NCBI GenBank assembly: GCA_027604185.1
Contig: JADGKB010000001.1
Coordinates: 336,919-400,918 of the forward strand
From: Boothiomyces macroporosus
Taxonomy: Eukaryota > Chytridiomycota > Chytridiomycetes > Rhizophydiales > Terramycetaceae
DNA length: 64,000 nucleotides
Direction: 5' to 3'
In this document: positions 4,204-56,292 of the stretch, in pieces
Position numbering within the stretch: the stretch's first letter is position 1
How the letters are laid out: each line of letters opens with the position of its first letter
Position numbers and translations under genes: made by a program
Notes under the pieces: model-generated
What the model was told of the DNA's origin: nothing
Seen by the model: the letters and a program-made list of their open reading frames with translations, nothing else
Database searches by the model: none

Positions 4204-7040
4204 ATGACTGCTACAAGACGTTTGCTTCCAGCCTATGCCAAACCAACACATTACAACCTGACTCTAGTTCCAGGATTGGATACCGGTAAATTCACTGGTC
4301 AAGTGTCAATCAGTTTAACTGTTACTGAAACTACTAAAAAACTAGTTGCCAATGCAAAAGACTTGGAAGTCGTCAAAGCTTCTGCTGTTGTATTCAGAGT
4401 AAACCCTGGTGGCTTGCCTAGAGTGAATGCATGGCCAAAAGACCCAAAGACTCACCGCGCTACACAACCAGCAGCCTCAATCACACTAGATAAAGAAGAG
4501 GAAACTGTAACTTTTGAATTTGAACATGAAATCCCTGCTACATCCAACATCATTCTGCATGTCGAATTTAATGGAACCCACTTTGATGATATGAAAGGAT
4601 TCTATCGCTCGTCATACCTTGCTGAAGATGGATCAAAGAAATACCTTGTCACAACCCAATTCGAAGCAGCAGATGCAAGAAGAGCTTTCCCATGTTGGGA
4701 TGAACCTAACCGCAAAGCTACTTTTGATGTCCAACTTTTGGTTCCTCAAGACTTGGTTGCGTTGTCCAACATGAACATTGTTGAAGAAAAAGATGTCGAA
4801 TTTGGATCAAAGACATTCAGATCGTACAAGTATGCTACTACCCCAATCATGTCATCTTATCTGTTGGCATTCTGCGTTGGTGATTTTGAATATATCGAAG
4901 GTGTTGCAAACCCAAAGGCTCCAGCTGATGCGGAACCAATTACCTGCAGAGTATATACCTTGAAAGGAAAGAAGGAGCAAGGCAGATTTGCTTTAGGTGT
5001 TGGTATCAAAACATTGGAGTTCTTTTCAGAATACTTTGATATCAAGTATCCATTACCAAAGATGGATCAAATTGCTATTCCAGACTTTTCTGCCGGTGCT
5101 ATGGAAAACTGGGGGCTCGTTACCTATAGAGACGTAGCTCTTTTAGTTGATGGGGACAAGACCAGTATTGCCACCAGAAGAAGAGTCGCTGAAGGTAAAT
5201 ATTAATTTATTTGAGTTGTATGTCACGAATTTGCTCATCAATGGTTCGGCAACTTGGTAACCATGGACTGGTGGAAAGAACTCTGGCTCAATGAAGGATT
5301 TGCCACTTATGTTGGTATTTTCGCTGTGGACAAGAACTTTCCAGACTGGAAAACTTTTGATGAATTTGTAGGTGAGAACATGGTAATGGCGTTTTCACTT
5401 GATGGTCTTCGTTCCAGTCACCCAATTGAAGTAGAAGTAAACACACCAAAAGATATTGATCAAATCTTTGATGGGATTTCCTACGCAAAGGGCGCCTCTG
5501 TCATTAGATTAATCAGCTCTTATCTTGGTGCTGAAACCTTTATGAATGGTGTCCGCTTGTACTTGAAGAAGTTTGCATACAAAAACGCTACAACTATTGA
5601 TTTATGGAATGCCTGCTCTGAAGCATCTGGGAAAGACATTGCAAAAATTATGAAAGAATGGATTACTGATGTTGGTTATCCAATGGTTACTATCACTGGC
5701 GAAGAATATAACTCTGAAACCAAGCAGCTTACTCTTACTTTGCAGCAAAAGAGATTTTTGGCAACTGGTGACTTGACTGAAGAGGAAGAGGCCAATGGAT
5801 CAATTTGGTCTATCCCAGTTTCTGTCTTGACCCACAATGGTGTAGTCTCTGAAACCTTCTTGTTTACTGAAAAAGCAGGACAAATCACCTTTGACTACGA
5901 TCTTGTTGATGGTGCGTTCTGGAAACTCAACAGTTCCTGCCAATCATTAATTAGAATCAACTATAGTGGGGAACAATTGGCATCAATCAGCCAAGCTTTG
6001 AAATCTAAACCTGAATTGTTTGCAGTAACTGATAGATTGGAAATCTTGATGGACGTATTTTCATTTGCCGAAGGAGGTCTCATTGCTACCACTGGTGCTT
6101 TGGAAATTTTGAAGGGATACTCTGAAGAAACTGATTTGAGGTAACAAAACTTTAACGAAACAGAGTTTTGGAAAGAATCCATGCTAGCTGCTCCAAACTC
6201 AGACGTGCATGGTCTGCTGACAAGAAAGTTGTAGAAGGTATTGACGCATTGCTCTTGTCCATCTTCTCTTCAAAAGTAGAACAACTTGGGTATGACTATC
6301 CTGAAGGAGAAGATGAAACTGTTTCTTCAATCAGAACATTGGCTATCGAAGTTTCGGTAGAGGCTGAAGATGAAAAAGTTAAAGCTGAACTCAAGGAGCG
6401 TTACCTAAAGTTCAGAAACGGCGATGAAAATGCTTTCCATTCAAATATTAGAGGACTAGTATTTGCTTGCGGCCACGCTGGCTCAGATAGCCCACAACAA
6501 GACTTTGATTTCTTGTACAACTTGTATTTGACTGGTGCCAACCCTGGAATTAAGACTGCTGCTCTCACTTCACTGGCAAAAACTAATGATATTACTTTGG
6601 CAAAGAAGTTGCTGGAAGAGTATGTCTTTGATTCCGATAAAGTCAAGCCTCAAGATTTCTTTGGCCCATACTTGACTCTGGTAATGAATCCTGCTCCAGG
6701 TCTCAAAGCCGAACTAACACCATATACTAAAGAATGGGTATTTGCAAACTGGAATTTGATTTACTCAAAGTTTGAATCTCAAGCAGCCAGACTAAGCTAC
6801 GTCCCAATCATCCACATCTATGCCAACTTGTCTTGGGAAATGATTGGATTTGTTGAAAAGTGGGCTGCTGGAGAAGGACTGCCTGAAGAAGAAGCACAAC
6901 TACGCAAGAAACAGGTAGCTAGCTTCATCAGATCATTGAACCAAAGTTTGGAAACTTTAAAGAGCTCCGCAACATGGGTTGATAGAGAAAAGGACTCTGT
7001 TCGTGAATGGTTTGTCCAAAATGGATTCACAACCTTGTAA
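4204..7040 (+). CDS. M1 family aminopeptidase (puromycin-sensitive/Aap1-Ape2 type), copy 1
   Basis: Zinc metallopeptidase of 930 aa after removal of introns 5195-5215 (21 nt) and 6141-6163 (23 nt). It carries the substrate-binding motif GAMENWG, the zinc site HEFAHQW ending in WLNEGFATYVG (third ligand Glu), and the ERAP1-like C-terminal helical domain. These enzymes trim N-terminal residues from peptides in the cytosol. No signal peptide is seen. I chose ATG 4204 over the in-frame ATG at 4135 because MTATRRLLPAYAKPTHYN aligns with the paralogue's MPGKSRLLPQNAQPTHYN. HEFAHQW has Phe where the family usually has Leu. TAA overlaps AATAAA (7039-7044). Confidence 0.92.
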
Positions 7041-7310: not shown

Positions 7311-10118
7311 ATGCCTGGGAAAAGTCGACTCTTACCTCAAAATGCGCAGCCAACTCATTACAATTTAACTCTGGTTCCTGGACTCGACACAGCAAAGTTT
7401 ACTGGCCAGGTCTCTATTAGCTTAACTGTATCGGAAGCTACACGAGTTCTAGTTGCTAATGTAAGAGATTTATCAGTTACCAAAGCGTCAGTGGCAGTAC
7501 TGCGTGTCAGTCCTGGTGGTTTGGACAGAGTGCAAAGCTGGCCAAAAGATCCTACAACTCATAGAGCAACTCAAGATTCATCTTCCATTGCTATAGATAA
7601 CGGTAATGAAACCGTCGCAATTGAATTCCAGCATGAAATTCCAGCAATCTCAAAGGTAGTGCTGCATTTGGAATTTGCAGGCACTCACTTTGAGGATCTT
7701 CGCAGTTTTTATCGATCATCATACTTGGCAGACGACGGATCAAAAAAGTATATTGTTACGACACAGTTCCAAGCTGCAGATGCAAGAAGATGTTTCCCAT
7801 GTTGGGACGAACCAAATTTGAAAGCGACTTTTGATGTTCAACTGATTGTACCAAAAGGATTGATAGCACTGTCCAATACGGAAGTTGTTGAGCAAGAAGA
7901 TCTTGTTATTGGAAACAAGGAAATGCGTCTATTTAAATTCGCCACCACACCAATTATGTGCACCTATCTTTTAGCTTTTTGTGTGGGCGAATTCGACTAT
8001 ATCGAAGGAGTAGCCCATCCTAAATCACCAGCAGACGCAAAGCCAGTTACATGCAGGGTTTATACTGTTCCTGGAAAGAGGGAACAAGGCCGATTTGCAC
8101 TCGATGTTGGAATCAAAACTTTGGAATTCTTTTCCGAGTATTTCGATATTGCCTACTCAATTCCAAAGTTGGACCAAATTGCCGTTCCAGAAATGTTGGG
8201 AGCCATGGAAAATTGGGGTTTGGTCATCTATGAGGAAGGTGCACTCCTTGTTGACCCTGAAAAGTCGAGTGCTAACAGTAAAAAAATGGTTGCTTCTGGT
8301 ACTATGATCCTAATGTAGTGATTTGTCATGAGCTTGCCCATCAATGGTTTGGGAATTTGGTAACCATGGATTGGTGGAAAGAGCTTTGGCTGAATGAAGG
8401 GTTTGCTACCTATGTGGGGACCTTTGCTGTTGACTATCTCTTTCCAGAATGGAAAAGCTTTGACAAATTTATTTTGAATAGCATGAACAGAGCGTTGGTT
8501 TTAGACGGTCTTCGGTCCAGCCATCCAATAGAAGTTGAAGTCAATACTCCAAAGGATATTGATCAAATATTCGACGGTATCTCTTACGCCAAAGGAGCAT
8601 CAATTATCAGACTCATTAGCTCGTATTTGGGCCCTGAAGTTTTCATGAATGGAGTTAGAATTTACTTGAAGAGATTTGCCTTCAAAAACGCAACTACCAT
8701 TGATTTATGGAACGCTTGTTCAGAAGCATCTGGGAAAGACATTGCAAAAATTATGAAAGAATGGACTGAAGTTATGGGCTATCCGATGGTGACGATTTTA
8801 GATGAAGAATACGACGAAACTGCCAAAAAGCTTACCCTCACTCTCGAGCAAAAGCGCTTCTTATCAACCGGGGACTTGACGGAAGAGGAAAACACTAATG
8901 GTGCATTATGGTCTATACCGTTTTCAGTTTTAACCCAGGAAGGAGAGTATAGTGAATCATTTTTGTTGGATCAAAAAGTGGGCAAAATAACCTTTGACTA
9001 TGAAGAAAGATCAAATTCTTTTTGGAAATTAAACAGTTCTTGCCATACTCTGTTCCGTGTAAATTATAGCGATGCTCAACTGCGTAGAATCATCCGTGTT
9101 TTGTCCTCTAACAGACATGTGTTTACCGTTGCAGATAGATTAGAGCTTTTAATGGACGTTTTCGCTTTTGCTGAAGCTGGTTTAAGTTCTACTTTGAATG
9201 CACTAAACTTGTTAAAGGAATTTTCTAACGAAACAGACATTACGTAAGATGGATCTTAATTTTAGCGTATTGCAAAAGATCAGGGAATATACCGACACAA
9301 TCAAGAAAGTGTGGGTATCAAACAAGTCAGTTTGCGATGGAATTGATCGCTTAGCTTCATCTATATTTTACGGAAAAGTTTTGGAGCTGGGATACGAATT
9401 TAAGGATGAAACCCAGGACTCTCTTCGAACACTCGCAATTAGTGTAACTGCTGGTGCTAAAGTAAAGCCGGTCTTGGAAGAATTACATTCAAGATATTTG
9501 AAATTCCGTAGTGGAGAGGAAAACGCATTCCATCCAAATATTTGCGACTTGGTCTTTAATGCAGGCAGCACACTATCTCAAACGCCTATGCGAGATTTTG
9601 AATTTTTGTACAATATTTACCTGACTGGTGCTACACCAGCGATTAAGGTTGATGCATTGCGCGCTATAGGCAACACCAACGACTTTGAAATTGCAAAGTT
9701 GTTGGTGGAGAAATACTTGTTTGATTCAGATAAAGTGAAATCTGGCGATGTAATGTACTTGGCTAGAGCATTGATAGGAAACAATGCAGACTTTTCTAAC
9801 AACCTCCTTGCATACATTCAGAATTATGTTGTAACCAACTGGACCAAGCTGTATGAGCTGTACAAGACTCAACCATACACTCTTTCCTCCATATTAGTGG
9901 GATTACTACTCGCAAATCTCAATAGACCTATGGTTGAATTCATGGAAGGCTTTGTTAACGGCACAGGCTTGCCAGACAACCAAGCTTTGCAAAGACGAAA
10001 AGAAACAGAAGGAATTTCTAGAGCATTGGCCCAAAATATCGAAAAAGCAAAGACTTCTCTCAATTGGCTTGAAAGAGAGAATGAAAAGGTTGAGCGTTGG
10101 TTCAACCAGAATAAATAA
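7311..10118 (+). CDS. M1 family aminopeptidase, tandem copy 2
   Basis: Close paralogue of the preceding gene, 921 aa once introns 8299-8318 (20 nt) and 9244-9265 (22 nt) are removed. It shows GAMENWGLVIYEE, the canonical HELAHQWFGNLVT and WLNEGFATYVG, and the helical C-terminal domain. Both introns occupy the same codon positions as in copy 1 (just before the HExxH exon, and after TD[LI]), yet their sequences are unrelated. The duplication therefore post-dates intron gain. The C-terminal half is more diverged than the catalytic half. The gene ends in AATAAATAAA, a built-in polyadenylation signal. Confidence 0.92.
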
Positions 10119-14329: not shown

Positions 14330-15221
14330 ATGATAATCATCAGAGGGCTAGCAAACAAATTTAGGTCAATGAATGCGGTAAGAGTAGGATTGAATTCGCA
14401 TTATGGGTTCAGTCCGCTATATTCACTAAAAAGGTGGTATTCGGAAGAGAAACTTGAATCAGTGGTGTTTCAAGGGGAGAGTGTTCAACAGGAATACACT
14501 GGAGTATCTCAAGAAGGATTCAGTCCGGAAATACTCTCGATATTAAATGCACCAATCAGGGAGGAAGATATTGAAGTCACGCCAGACGGACATTTGTATC
14601 TACCGGGAATAAAGTATTAGTTGCTAATAATAGGTATCGCAGAATATTGAACCAGTCATTTGGTCCAGGTGGATGGGCGTTGGTTTGTTGTGATTAATCC
14701 AAGGTATATTTATTTTAATTTAGGTAACTGTAATTTGAGATAGGTAAGTGTAATTTGAGATAGGTAACTGTAAATTGAGATAGGTAAGTGTAATTTGAGA
14801 TAGGTAAGTGTAATTTGAGATAGGTAAGTGTGATGTAACAAGGTAAGTAAAAGTAACAAAGGTGCCACGCGGTCCACATACAACAATCAACAAGACTCTA
14901 TCAAGAGAATATGCTCTATATGCCCATGGAAGATTTATCGCCCAAGCAAGAGGAGAACAAGCTTATTTTTCAGATGAAGGAATCCCAACTGCCACCGAAG
15001 GATGCAAATCAAATGCACTAACACGTTGCTGCAAAGATCTCGGAATAGCATTTGAACTCTGGGATCCTCGCTTTATTCGGAAATTCAAGAGTGAAAATGT
15101 AGTTATGGTACAAGGGGTGCATGTGCGCACTGGGCAATCAAAGTGGTTGTACAAGCTCAAGAATGATACTCTTGAATACCCTTACAAGGAAAAGGAACAA
15201 CCAAAAACTTTTAAAAAATAA
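14330..15221 (+). CDS. MGM101: Mitochondrial genome maintenance protein Mgm101
   Basis: Removing a 20-nt intron (14614-14633) and a 179-nt compound intron (14683-14861) yields 230 aa. The N-terminus is a mitochondrial presequence ([20 protein letters not shown]). The core carries [70 protein letters not shown] and [17 protein letters not shown], all diagnostic of Mgm101. This is a Rad52-like single-strand annealing protein that maintains and repairs mitochondrial DNA. ATG 14330 is chosen because the frame opens upstream only with GTG. The exon-exon junction L|V inside GGWALVPRG fixes the limits of the compound intron exactly. Confidence 0.93.
14683..14861 (+). repeat. Nine back-to-back intron units (zero-length exons) inside MGM101
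   Basis: The 179-nt stretch divides without remainder into nine GT...AG units: 14683-14703 (21), 14704-14723, 14724-14743, 14744-14763, 14764-14783, 14784-14803, 14804-14823 (all 20), 14824-14842 and 14843-14861 (19 each). Units 4, 6 and 7 are identical, gtaagtgtaatttgagatag; unit 3 differs at one base and unit 5 at two. Units 8 and 9 are alike but distinct (gtaagtgtgatgtaacaag, gtaagtaaaagtaacaaag); units 1 and 2 are unrelated to the rest. Every junction is AG|GT. The flanking exons (GGA TGG GCG TTG | GTG CCA CGC GGT) encode the conserved GGWALVPRG only if all nine are removed. Each unit equals a normal intron of this genome in length. Confidence 0.92.
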
Positions 15222-45627: not shown

Positions 45628-46166
45628 TATGAATTTTTAAATTTTTTTGATTTTTAGTAGGTTATGGATTTTTTATAGTAACTTTTTTGAAGAAAGAAGT
45701 TGACAGAAAGTATAGTTTTTTTCGCTACTTTTTTTTTTATTCTCAAAGCCACTGTGGCGCATGACTCAATCCTCCGCAATGCAATTCAAGCTTGAAAAGC
45801 CTGCATTAAATGGTGTAGATAAAGTACCGCCAGCAGTATAAAAATTGTCGCATCCAAAGATCTACAAAGTGCATTCAAAGATCTACAAAGTGCAGGCAAA
45901 GATTATCCATCTATCCCTTTTTAATCAATGCAAGATTCAATTTATGGCTGAAGCGACAGAAATTCGTATCCTATTGCCCAGTTAATGGAGCAGCATCATA
46001 TTAGATCCTTGGAGTCATTGCATTACATTATCGCGCCTGAATTCTCGTTATCACCTGAATCTGACTGAAACATCAAATGATGACTCAGAAGTCAATGCGA
46101 CAGAAAATAATTAAACTTTTGCACTTTGTGAATGATATATTGTAAAAAGGTGTTTTGAATAATTTC
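45628..46166. other. Intergenic region between PABP and FAM210-like genes
   Basis: 539 bp, upstream of the PABP gene. T-rich runs lie just before the PABP start. It contains a short tandem repeat described separately. No exon or RNA gene recognised. Confidence 0.5.
45855..45894. repeat. Two-copy direct repeat, 21-bp period
   Basis: CAAAGATCTACAAAGTGCA occurs at 45855-45873 and again at 45876-45894, with a degenerate third start (CAAAGATTAT) at 45897. It lies about 230 bp upstream of the PABP start codon, so it could be a promoter element pair. Confidence 0.7.
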
Positions 46167-54551: not shown

Positions 54552-56292
54552 TTATTGAGGGGGTTTGTATCTCTTCATATCTGGACCATCAATCGGTGTC
54601 AAACGTCTCTTGCCAGTTTGAGGTGCTTCTTCTTTCTCGTCTGGCAAGCCAGCCCTATTGAGTTGTGGACCCAACATCATCGGACGAGATTGCTGCTGTG
54701 GAGGTGGACGTTGAGGGTTTTGTCCAGGAGGTGGTGGATTTGGATTAGCCAGTTGGTTGAATGAAGTAGGACCGCCGCCATTCAACACTGGTTTCTGGCC
54801 AACTTTTCGCGGTTGCTGCTGTTGGTTACTTGAAGGTCTTTCCGGTAAATGAGGAGACTAGTGTTAAATTGACTTACTCTAAAGTTTACAGGTGCGCTTC
54901 CACCAGCATTTGGATATTTTGGAGGAGCAGTATCTTGGGGAGCTGGTTGTTGAGGTTGTAATTGAGGAGGATTTTCACCATTATTAGGATTCTTTAGATA
55001 TTGAATTCTTTGTTTAATTAATGCGTTATTTGGATCAATCTCAAGTGCTTTGGTGTATGCATCCAGTGCGTCAGATTGCTGGTTTTCGCAAGACTCGTAC
55101 AGTGTCCCCAAGTCAAACCTAAAATTAAAAGCAATTACCAAACTTCAGAGATATATGGGTTTAGTCTAATCGCCCTACTATAAGCATCAAGGGCATCTGA
55201 ATATTGGTTAATTTGGTAATAAAGCACACCAATCGAGCACCAGAAAGTAGGATTACGACCATCCCGGTATACAGCTTGCTGATAGGCATTATAGGCATCA
55301 TTGTACTTTTGCTGGGCCATATAGCAGCGTCCCAAGAAATAAAAGCTTTGGGCATCAGTTTGGTCAGATTCAATTGAGCGAGTAAGATGGCTAATAGCGG
55401 CATCTTGGTTTGTGAACCCGGAATTTGAAATATGGTATAGCCATCCAAGCTGCTGCAATACTTTGGCATGTTTAGGGCTTTCAGCCAAAACCCTTTCGTA
55501 TGCCTCTCTCGCCTTCCCATATTCTTTCTGCTGCTCATACAAATGCCCAATTTGGAACCAAATATCTAGCTCAGTCAACGGGCTTGGTGGACAGTTCAAG
55601 ATGTATTTGAAACACTCTAAACTGTTCTCGTATTTGCCCTCTTGTTTGTAAATAATTCCAAGTCTAAAGTAAATTTCGTTTGCTTTTTCAAAATTTGGAT
55701 CCATTTCGATTACTGCCGAGAATGCATCTTCTGCGTGTTCAAAAGAGCCATATCGATCGTACAATATTCCAATCCCGTACCATAATTTAGGTTCCTACAT
55801 AAATAATAAAGTACTTTTGGGTTTGGTAGGTGGTAGAGCGCTTGTTGGTAAGCGGAATAGGCTTTGTGTAGGTCATCCAACATCAAATAACAGTGTCCCA
55901 AAGCTCCCCATACCTCGCCGTTGCTTTCATGTAATTTGAGGATTCGCTGGAAATACTCAGCCGCCTATAATCAGAATCGAGGACCTTTGCGTATTTTTCT
56001 TGAGATCGACATAACGAGGCGATGATGGTCAGAGTTTTTTCAGAGTATGGATTGTGACGAAGACAGTTTTCGTATGCGGCTAGCGCTTTATCTGGATCAG
56101 ACATGTTTTCAGCTACTTGACCTGCGATTAAGGAGGGTTACCTTATGTTAGATTTCCTATACCTAAACGTAAATCGTTCCTAGTTACCTGTGGGTTATCA
56201 TCGGCTTACCTAGGCGTCAGTTAATTCCTACCTATCTGGAACCAAGTGTTCTCATTCATTACCTGCAATTCCTTTACAATCTGTGAGGCCAT
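54552..56292 (-). CDS. CYC8: TPR transcriptional corepressor Cyc8/Ssn6
   Basis: 516 aa once a compound intron (56122-56231) and introns 55965-55984, 55795-55814, 55119-55138 and 54858-54877 (20 nt each) are removed. About ten TPRs fill residues 12-385, starting ENTWFQIGQVAENMSDPDKA and including LWYGIGILYDRYGSFEHAED and LDIWFQIGHLYEQQKEYGKA, in the order of Ssn6. A Pro/Gln-rich tail and a basic end (RRLTPIDGPDMKRYKPP) follow. It bridges Tup1 to DNA-bound repressors. The join ATA G|GT CAA restores WFQIGQVAE, fixing the compound-intron limits. One intron has an unusual GTCC donor (55965-55984). Confidence 0.9.
56122..56231 (-). other. Five back-to-back intron units (zero-length exons) inside CYC8
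   Basis: On the minus strand the 110 nt divide exactly into GT...AG units of 22 (56231-56210), 22 (56209-56188), 25 (56187-56163), 21 (56162-56142) and 20 nt (56141-56122). The last is gtaaccctccttaatcgcag. Unlike the MGM101 array, the five are not alike in sequence. Each still begins GTA, and most have their own branch-like motif (TTAAC, ATAAC, CTAAC, TTAAT; none clear in the 25-nt unit) and end TAG, CAG or AAG. All four internal junctions read AG|GT. Only complete removal restores the TPR reading frame. Confidence 0.88.

Follow-up and report, generated by a model that had tools for sequence, protein, structure and literature searches.

In the MGM101 gene of Boothiomyces macroporosus, nine GT...AG units follow one another directly at a single coding position, and arrays of this kind recur elsewhere in the genome. 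Such arrays probably consist of complete spliceosomal introns, each about 20 nt long, placed at one coding position with zero-length exons between them and excised mostly unit by unit. The MGM101 array is not unique, as the window (the whole stretch of 64,000 nt that was analysed) holds two further arrays and others are found genome-wide.

All parts of MGM101 lie on the forward strand. Exon 1 (14330-14613) opens with the ATG at 14330, the start that the protein of Boothiomyces JEL0838 also uses; the gene finder chose an in-frame ATG at 14369 instead. An ordinary single intron of 20 nt, GTATTAGTTGCTAATAATAG (14614-14633), is followed by exon 2 (14634-14682), whose 3′ end ...GGATGGGCGTTG encodes GGWAL, and exon 3 (14862-15221) has the 5′ end GTGCCACGC, encoding VPRG. 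Between exons 2 and 3 lie 179 nt (14683-14861) that the sequence-only reading had divided into nine GT...AG units of 19-21 nt with AG|GT throughout. This division holds and is the single possible parse into GT...AG units of 15-25 nt, with unit lengths, in order, of 21, 20, 20, 20, 20, 20, 20, 19 and 19 nt. AG|GT is present at all eight inner joints, and because exon 3 opens with GT the last joint of the array is AG|GT as well.

Unit 1 (14683-14703, 21 nt) combines a good branch motif, TTAAT, with the donor GTTTGT, which is rare among single introns (1 of 288). Unit 2 (14704-14723, 20 nt) also has the branch TTAAT, and units 3-7 (14724-14823) are five near-identical 20-nt copies in the order A-B-A'-B-B with the donors GTAACT or GTAAGT. 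Units 8 (14824-14842) and 9 (14843-14861) are 19 nt each and share the donor GTAAGT and the branch GTAAC. Units 4, 6 and 7 were said to be identical and units 3 and 5 nearly so, and the sequence bears this out, unit 3 differing from unit 4 at one position and unit 5 at two. Tandem Repeats Finder independently reported 14721-14831 with a period of 20, 5.6 copies and 94% matches. Units 1 and 2 are dissimilar to the other units, and units 8 and 9 resemble them weakly; tandem copies of one unit, as in a minisatellite, are thus found in units 3-7 and not, or only weakly, in units 1, 2, 8 and 9. The array and its gene occur once in the 15.2-Mb assembly of 216 contigs, the copy number being that of the assembly.

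Removal of all nine units restores the segment GGWALVPRG. The proposal that this requires the loss of every unit was confirmed, as none of the 511 non-empty sets of retained units leaves the frame open to the MGM101 stop. The fully spliced product matches the Pfam Mgm101p profile at equal lengths (residues 40-207 to profile positions 3-170) and aligns with yeast Mgm101 (PDB) without a gap at the array position. The closest protein, from Boothiomyces sp. JEL0838, is 98% identical across the full query, with four differences, all in exon 1. The annotated Mgm101 of Boothiomyces JEL0866 carries a 12-residue insert, VSLFNVSFNVIK, precisely where the array lies, and 31 residues around this site are missing from the model of Terramyces JEL0728. 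We read the insert and the skip as probable mis-annotations of intron sequence in those relatives too, and as examples of how gene predictors will mishandle array sites.

The second array of the window lies on the reverse strand (56122-56231) and comprises five units of 22, 22, 25, 21 and 20 nt in a TPR gene, with the joint WFQIG^QVAEN. This gene, which we take to be CYC8/SSN6-like, has its array on two contigs, C1 and C173 (L059), in identical sequence. The third array, on the forward strand at 1834-1873, consists of two 20-nt units in a gene of the ELMO/CED-12 family, with the joint ARAG^TRYDI.

The intron landscape was described with two gene finders; initial versions with loose intron costs yielded a runaway 767-1,015 introns and were discarded. 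Finder A allowed introns of 15-300 nt, with a prior for 17-26 nt and without chaining. Its better genes contained 226 introns, 193 of them at 16-25 nt (mode 20), in agreement with the earlier statement that introns here are about 20 nt long. Of its 33 introns longer than 26 nt, only the two of 40 and 43 nt can be divided completely into two units. Finder A fused neighbouring genes, and several of the other 31, which do not tile, span gene boundaries in other runs; the rest may include genuine long single introns, which would count against the unit-by-unit reading. Finder B allowed introns of 15-27 nt and their chaining; it predicted 96 genes, with 293 intron sites in 130,404 coding bases. A yTrAy branch motif was found in 205 of 288 single introns, and in 163 of these the branch A lies 5-6 nt from the 3′ end. 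GT...AG ends, a branch-like motif near the 3′ end and restoration of a conserved frame on removal, as in U2-type introns, were all observed, and U2 snRNA gave two matches above the cut-off. Literature on chytrid intron length offered nothing useful on introns of about 20 nt in this lineage. Array units resemble the single introns in length (20.8 ± 1.4 nt for 101 units versus 20.5 ± 1.6 nt for 288 single introns, the finder being limited to 15-27 nt).

In 191 kb that had not been picked for arrays, five of the 293 predicted intron sites were arrays (95% interval 0.6-3.9%): 288 were single, three had two units, one had five and one nine. Two independent introns would be expected to share a position about 0.7 times (293 x 293/130,404), whereas 15 extra units were observed. 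The genome-wide search for tandem introns called for by the sequence-only reading was run with four pair patterns, which gave 27, 38, 42 and 20 matches against 9, 4, 6 and 5 for the reversed controls. The total is 127 versus 24, with overlapping matches in one array and near-duplicate contigs each scored separately, and arrays of two to six units recur. A pattern of three spaced AGGTA motifs showed a weak excess (34 matches versus 24 in controls), and some of its matches are unrelated repeats; AGGTA-spaced tandem repeats at C25:31562-31630, C68:72617, C128:6840 and C164:22087-22145 have no intron signals and resemble other repeats. A GTAAGT pair pattern matched MGM101 only. Pattern matches recur on a second contig or twice per contig (C1/C173, C49/C100, C20/C31, C65, C10), which suggests that the assembly has kept separate haplotypes or contains recent duplications.

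Gene models were built for two samples, neither of them random. The first, of 20 stretches, covered 24 of the 65 matches from two pair patterns, including all four overlapping triples; the second consisted of 15 further loci picked for length or novelty. The models contained an array at 13 of the 20 loci of the first sample and at 11 of the 15 of the second; those of L033, L034, L039, L040, L042, L046 and L047 had none. The largest arrays beyond the window have six units (L029, a glycogen debranching enzyme gene), five units (L051) and four units (L030, a USP/MATH gene, and L062). Two rows of L049 (rows 1 and 2) are fragments of one five-unit run, and the two rows of L050 are, judged by eye, probably one run joined through a GC-donor unit. 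By eye, some units of L050, L054 and L056 appear to begin with GC instead of GT, and the GC-start unit of L056 has 18 nt in common with the next unit. A weakly supported pair in L027 sits after the first codon.

The arrays fall inside the matched Pfam domain in eight of ten peptides of one set and in all four of another. A pyruvate-carboxylase-like gene of L025 has a unit pair in its biotin carboxylase region. Alignments of the glycogen debranching enzyme with solved structures, and of a GID8-like protein with seven relatives, have no gap at the array joint. Fibrillarin (L037) and a TB2/DP1 gene (L035) were not counted as domain evidence, because their arrays fall outside the matched domain.

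Tiling was simulated with 200,000 sequences per length, having GT...AG ends and intron-like composition, and with GT...AG units of 18-27 nt as tiles. Full tilings numbered 2,772 at 40 nt, 4,445 at 43 nt and 58 at 61 nt, and none was obtained at 82, 110 or 179 nt; for MGM101 this figure is a description and not a test, given its near-identical units. The CYC8-like array of 110 nt, on the other hand, tiles fully with mutually unlike units. Since random sequence of that length never tiled, tiling must be kept by use. Of 81 units, just three can be retained on their own without closing the reading frame.

A spliceosome working mainly on introns of about 20 nt would remove the units, or small groups of neighbours, separately and in no fixed order. 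Taking out any unit would re-create exon|GT... or ...AG|exon exactly. By the logic of the sequence, AG|GT at every joint means that any order, and any donor paired with a later acceptor, gives the same mRNA; copy number should therefore be silent in the protein, and arrays can persist.

Alternatively, each array could be one longer intron (179 nt in MGM101) that is spliced out in one step, using only the first donor and the last acceptor, with the GT...AG units inside it being tandem-repeat relics or chance. The mRNA product would be identical, repeats within introns are common, and MGM101 units 3-7 have an off-consensus TTGAG at the usual place of the branch, units 1, 2, 8 and 9 being better, although the strict motif is absent from 83 of 288 single introns as well. 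We nevertheless consider this reading unlikely, as intron lengths in this genome centre on about 20 nt and repetition offers no explanation for the full tiling of unlike units, which chance would produce at 110 nt in less than 1 in 200,000 sequences by simulation. In addition, the outermost donor, which such an intron would use, is the weakest of the MGM101 array (2.1 bits, against 5.7-7.1 bits for the eight inner donors and a mean of 5.7 bits for single introns). Across the five arrays of the unchosen sequence, donors and branch motifs were no poorer than in single introns: inner donors averaged 6.4 bits versus 5.7 for singles (p = 0.065) and inner branch motifs compared with singles gave p = 0.11; these two of three comparisons of inner signals are weak, with 15 sites each, of which the eight from MGM101 are not independent.

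Removal could also be mixed, with some units leaving singly and others in blocks, such as one running from the donor of unit 3 to the unit 8 acceptor, if good branch sites are confined to some of the units; the remaining units would then be dead passengers. Branch strength is indeed uneven along the MGM101 and CYC8-like arrays, and the final mRNA is the same for any donor-acceptor pairing. However, blocks of at least 40 nt would exceed nearly all predicted single introns, which makes this scheme quite unlikely. An artefact, either a repeat expanded in assembly or coding or untranslated sequence misread as introns, is very improbable: the evidence comes from the assembly and from home-made gene models, but slippage during assembly cannot produce arrays of unlike units, the CYC8-like array has identical sequence on C1 and C173, every one of the 511 retention patterns breaks MGM101, and conserved domains continue across array joints. 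Separate removal of the units thus remains the preferred reading.

The sequence-only reading had further proposed that introns expand here like a satellite by silent tandem duplication. This picture fits MGM101 units 3-7, which are tandem copies. Clear similarity between units (Bonferroni p < 0.01) was, however, detected in only 3 of 34 array rows (MGM101, L044 and L051), with one more at 0.023, and silent tandem duplication alone therefore does not explain most arrays. The term minisatellite may accordingly suit MGM101, through its units 3-7, but not most of the others. Even with MGM101 excluded, the mean similarity of neighbouring units exceeds that of randomly chosen introns (p = 0.0015, L044 and L051 included).

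New units probably arose partly by tandem duplication of a unit, as in MGM101 units 3-7 and in L044 and L051. The order A-B-A'-B-B in MGM101 would be obtained if a two-unit block had been copied, and then one unit. Unlike units may be duplicates that have diverged beyond recognition, or introns that inserted independently at AG|GT joints. An exon flank ending in AG or beginning with GT accompanies 22 of 34 array rows versus 100 of 288 single introns (p = 0.001), or 20 of 31 rows after doubtful ones were merged or dropped. Such flanks are compatible with slippage that uses short direct repeats at the edges of an intron, and also with insertion at AG|GT. In the first array of L044, two identical 19-nt units are followed by an exon that opens with GTAATAG, seven bases as in the units, as if short homology had guided the copying.

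Literature searches covering exons of zero length, introns in tandem or back to back, and stwintrons with tandem duplication, with most subscription journals outside their scope, yielded no description of arrays of whole introns, in line with the earlier remark that none was known. Tandem genomic duplication has reportedly turned a duplicated exon stretch into one intron, whereas here an existing whole intron would be duplicated or joined by further introns. Duplication of a segment containing AGGT is reported to yield introns and to leave the protein unchanged (PMC4974935). The recursive splicing of Drosophila uses zero-nucleotide exons or ratchet points, where adjoining intron sections meet at AG|GT (PMC8906543). 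The present units likewise abut at AG|GT without an exon, as at 8/8 inner MGM101 joints, and separate reactions are possible. Whereas the Drosophila case concerns the subdivision of one very long intron, the pieces here measure about 20 nt, number up to nine and lie at coding positions in a genome of short introns, and the MGM101 array spans 179 nt. Sequential removal is putative in the present arrays.

Stwintrons contain an inner intron lodged within a splice element of an outer intron, which means that the inner one has to leave first (PMC9024468, PMC8469720). The arrays share with those of ascomycetes a complex intervening sequence of several U2-type introns in a fungus, but no element is interrupted, the order would be free, there can be more than two units, and the MGM101 parse is uniquely abutting and not nested. 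Stwintronisation in Lipomyces creates new splice sites inside an intervening sequence and allows removal in one or two steps (PMC7138796). It needs a host intron long enough to split, whereas introns here are too short for that, and some array units are clear whole-unit duplicates.

On balance, we lean towards a genome-wide habit in which a spliceosome that accepts only introns of about 20 nt lets each AG|GT intron edge dock another intron. Rows could then reach nine units and be cut in any order with the mRNA unaffected, intron number per site instead of intron length would be the free variable, and some rows would spread like a satellite. If so, introns multiply in place with the gene product visibly unchanged, a route of intron gain that is direct and can be dated, and the near-identical MGM101 units would show the process caught in the act. 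The arrays, sitting in ordinary housekeeping genes and with a putatively free order of removal, would also allow intron definition to be tested in nature at the lower end of intron size, with up to nine sets of donor, branch and acceptor in 179 nt.

Scans of the window for tRNA genes and Rfam families gave no matches. A 21-nt tandem repeat of 2.6 copies lies at 45850-45903. Two adjacent, similar genes of M1-family aminopeptidases (4204-7040 and 7311-10118, forward strand) apparently represent a tandem gene duplication.
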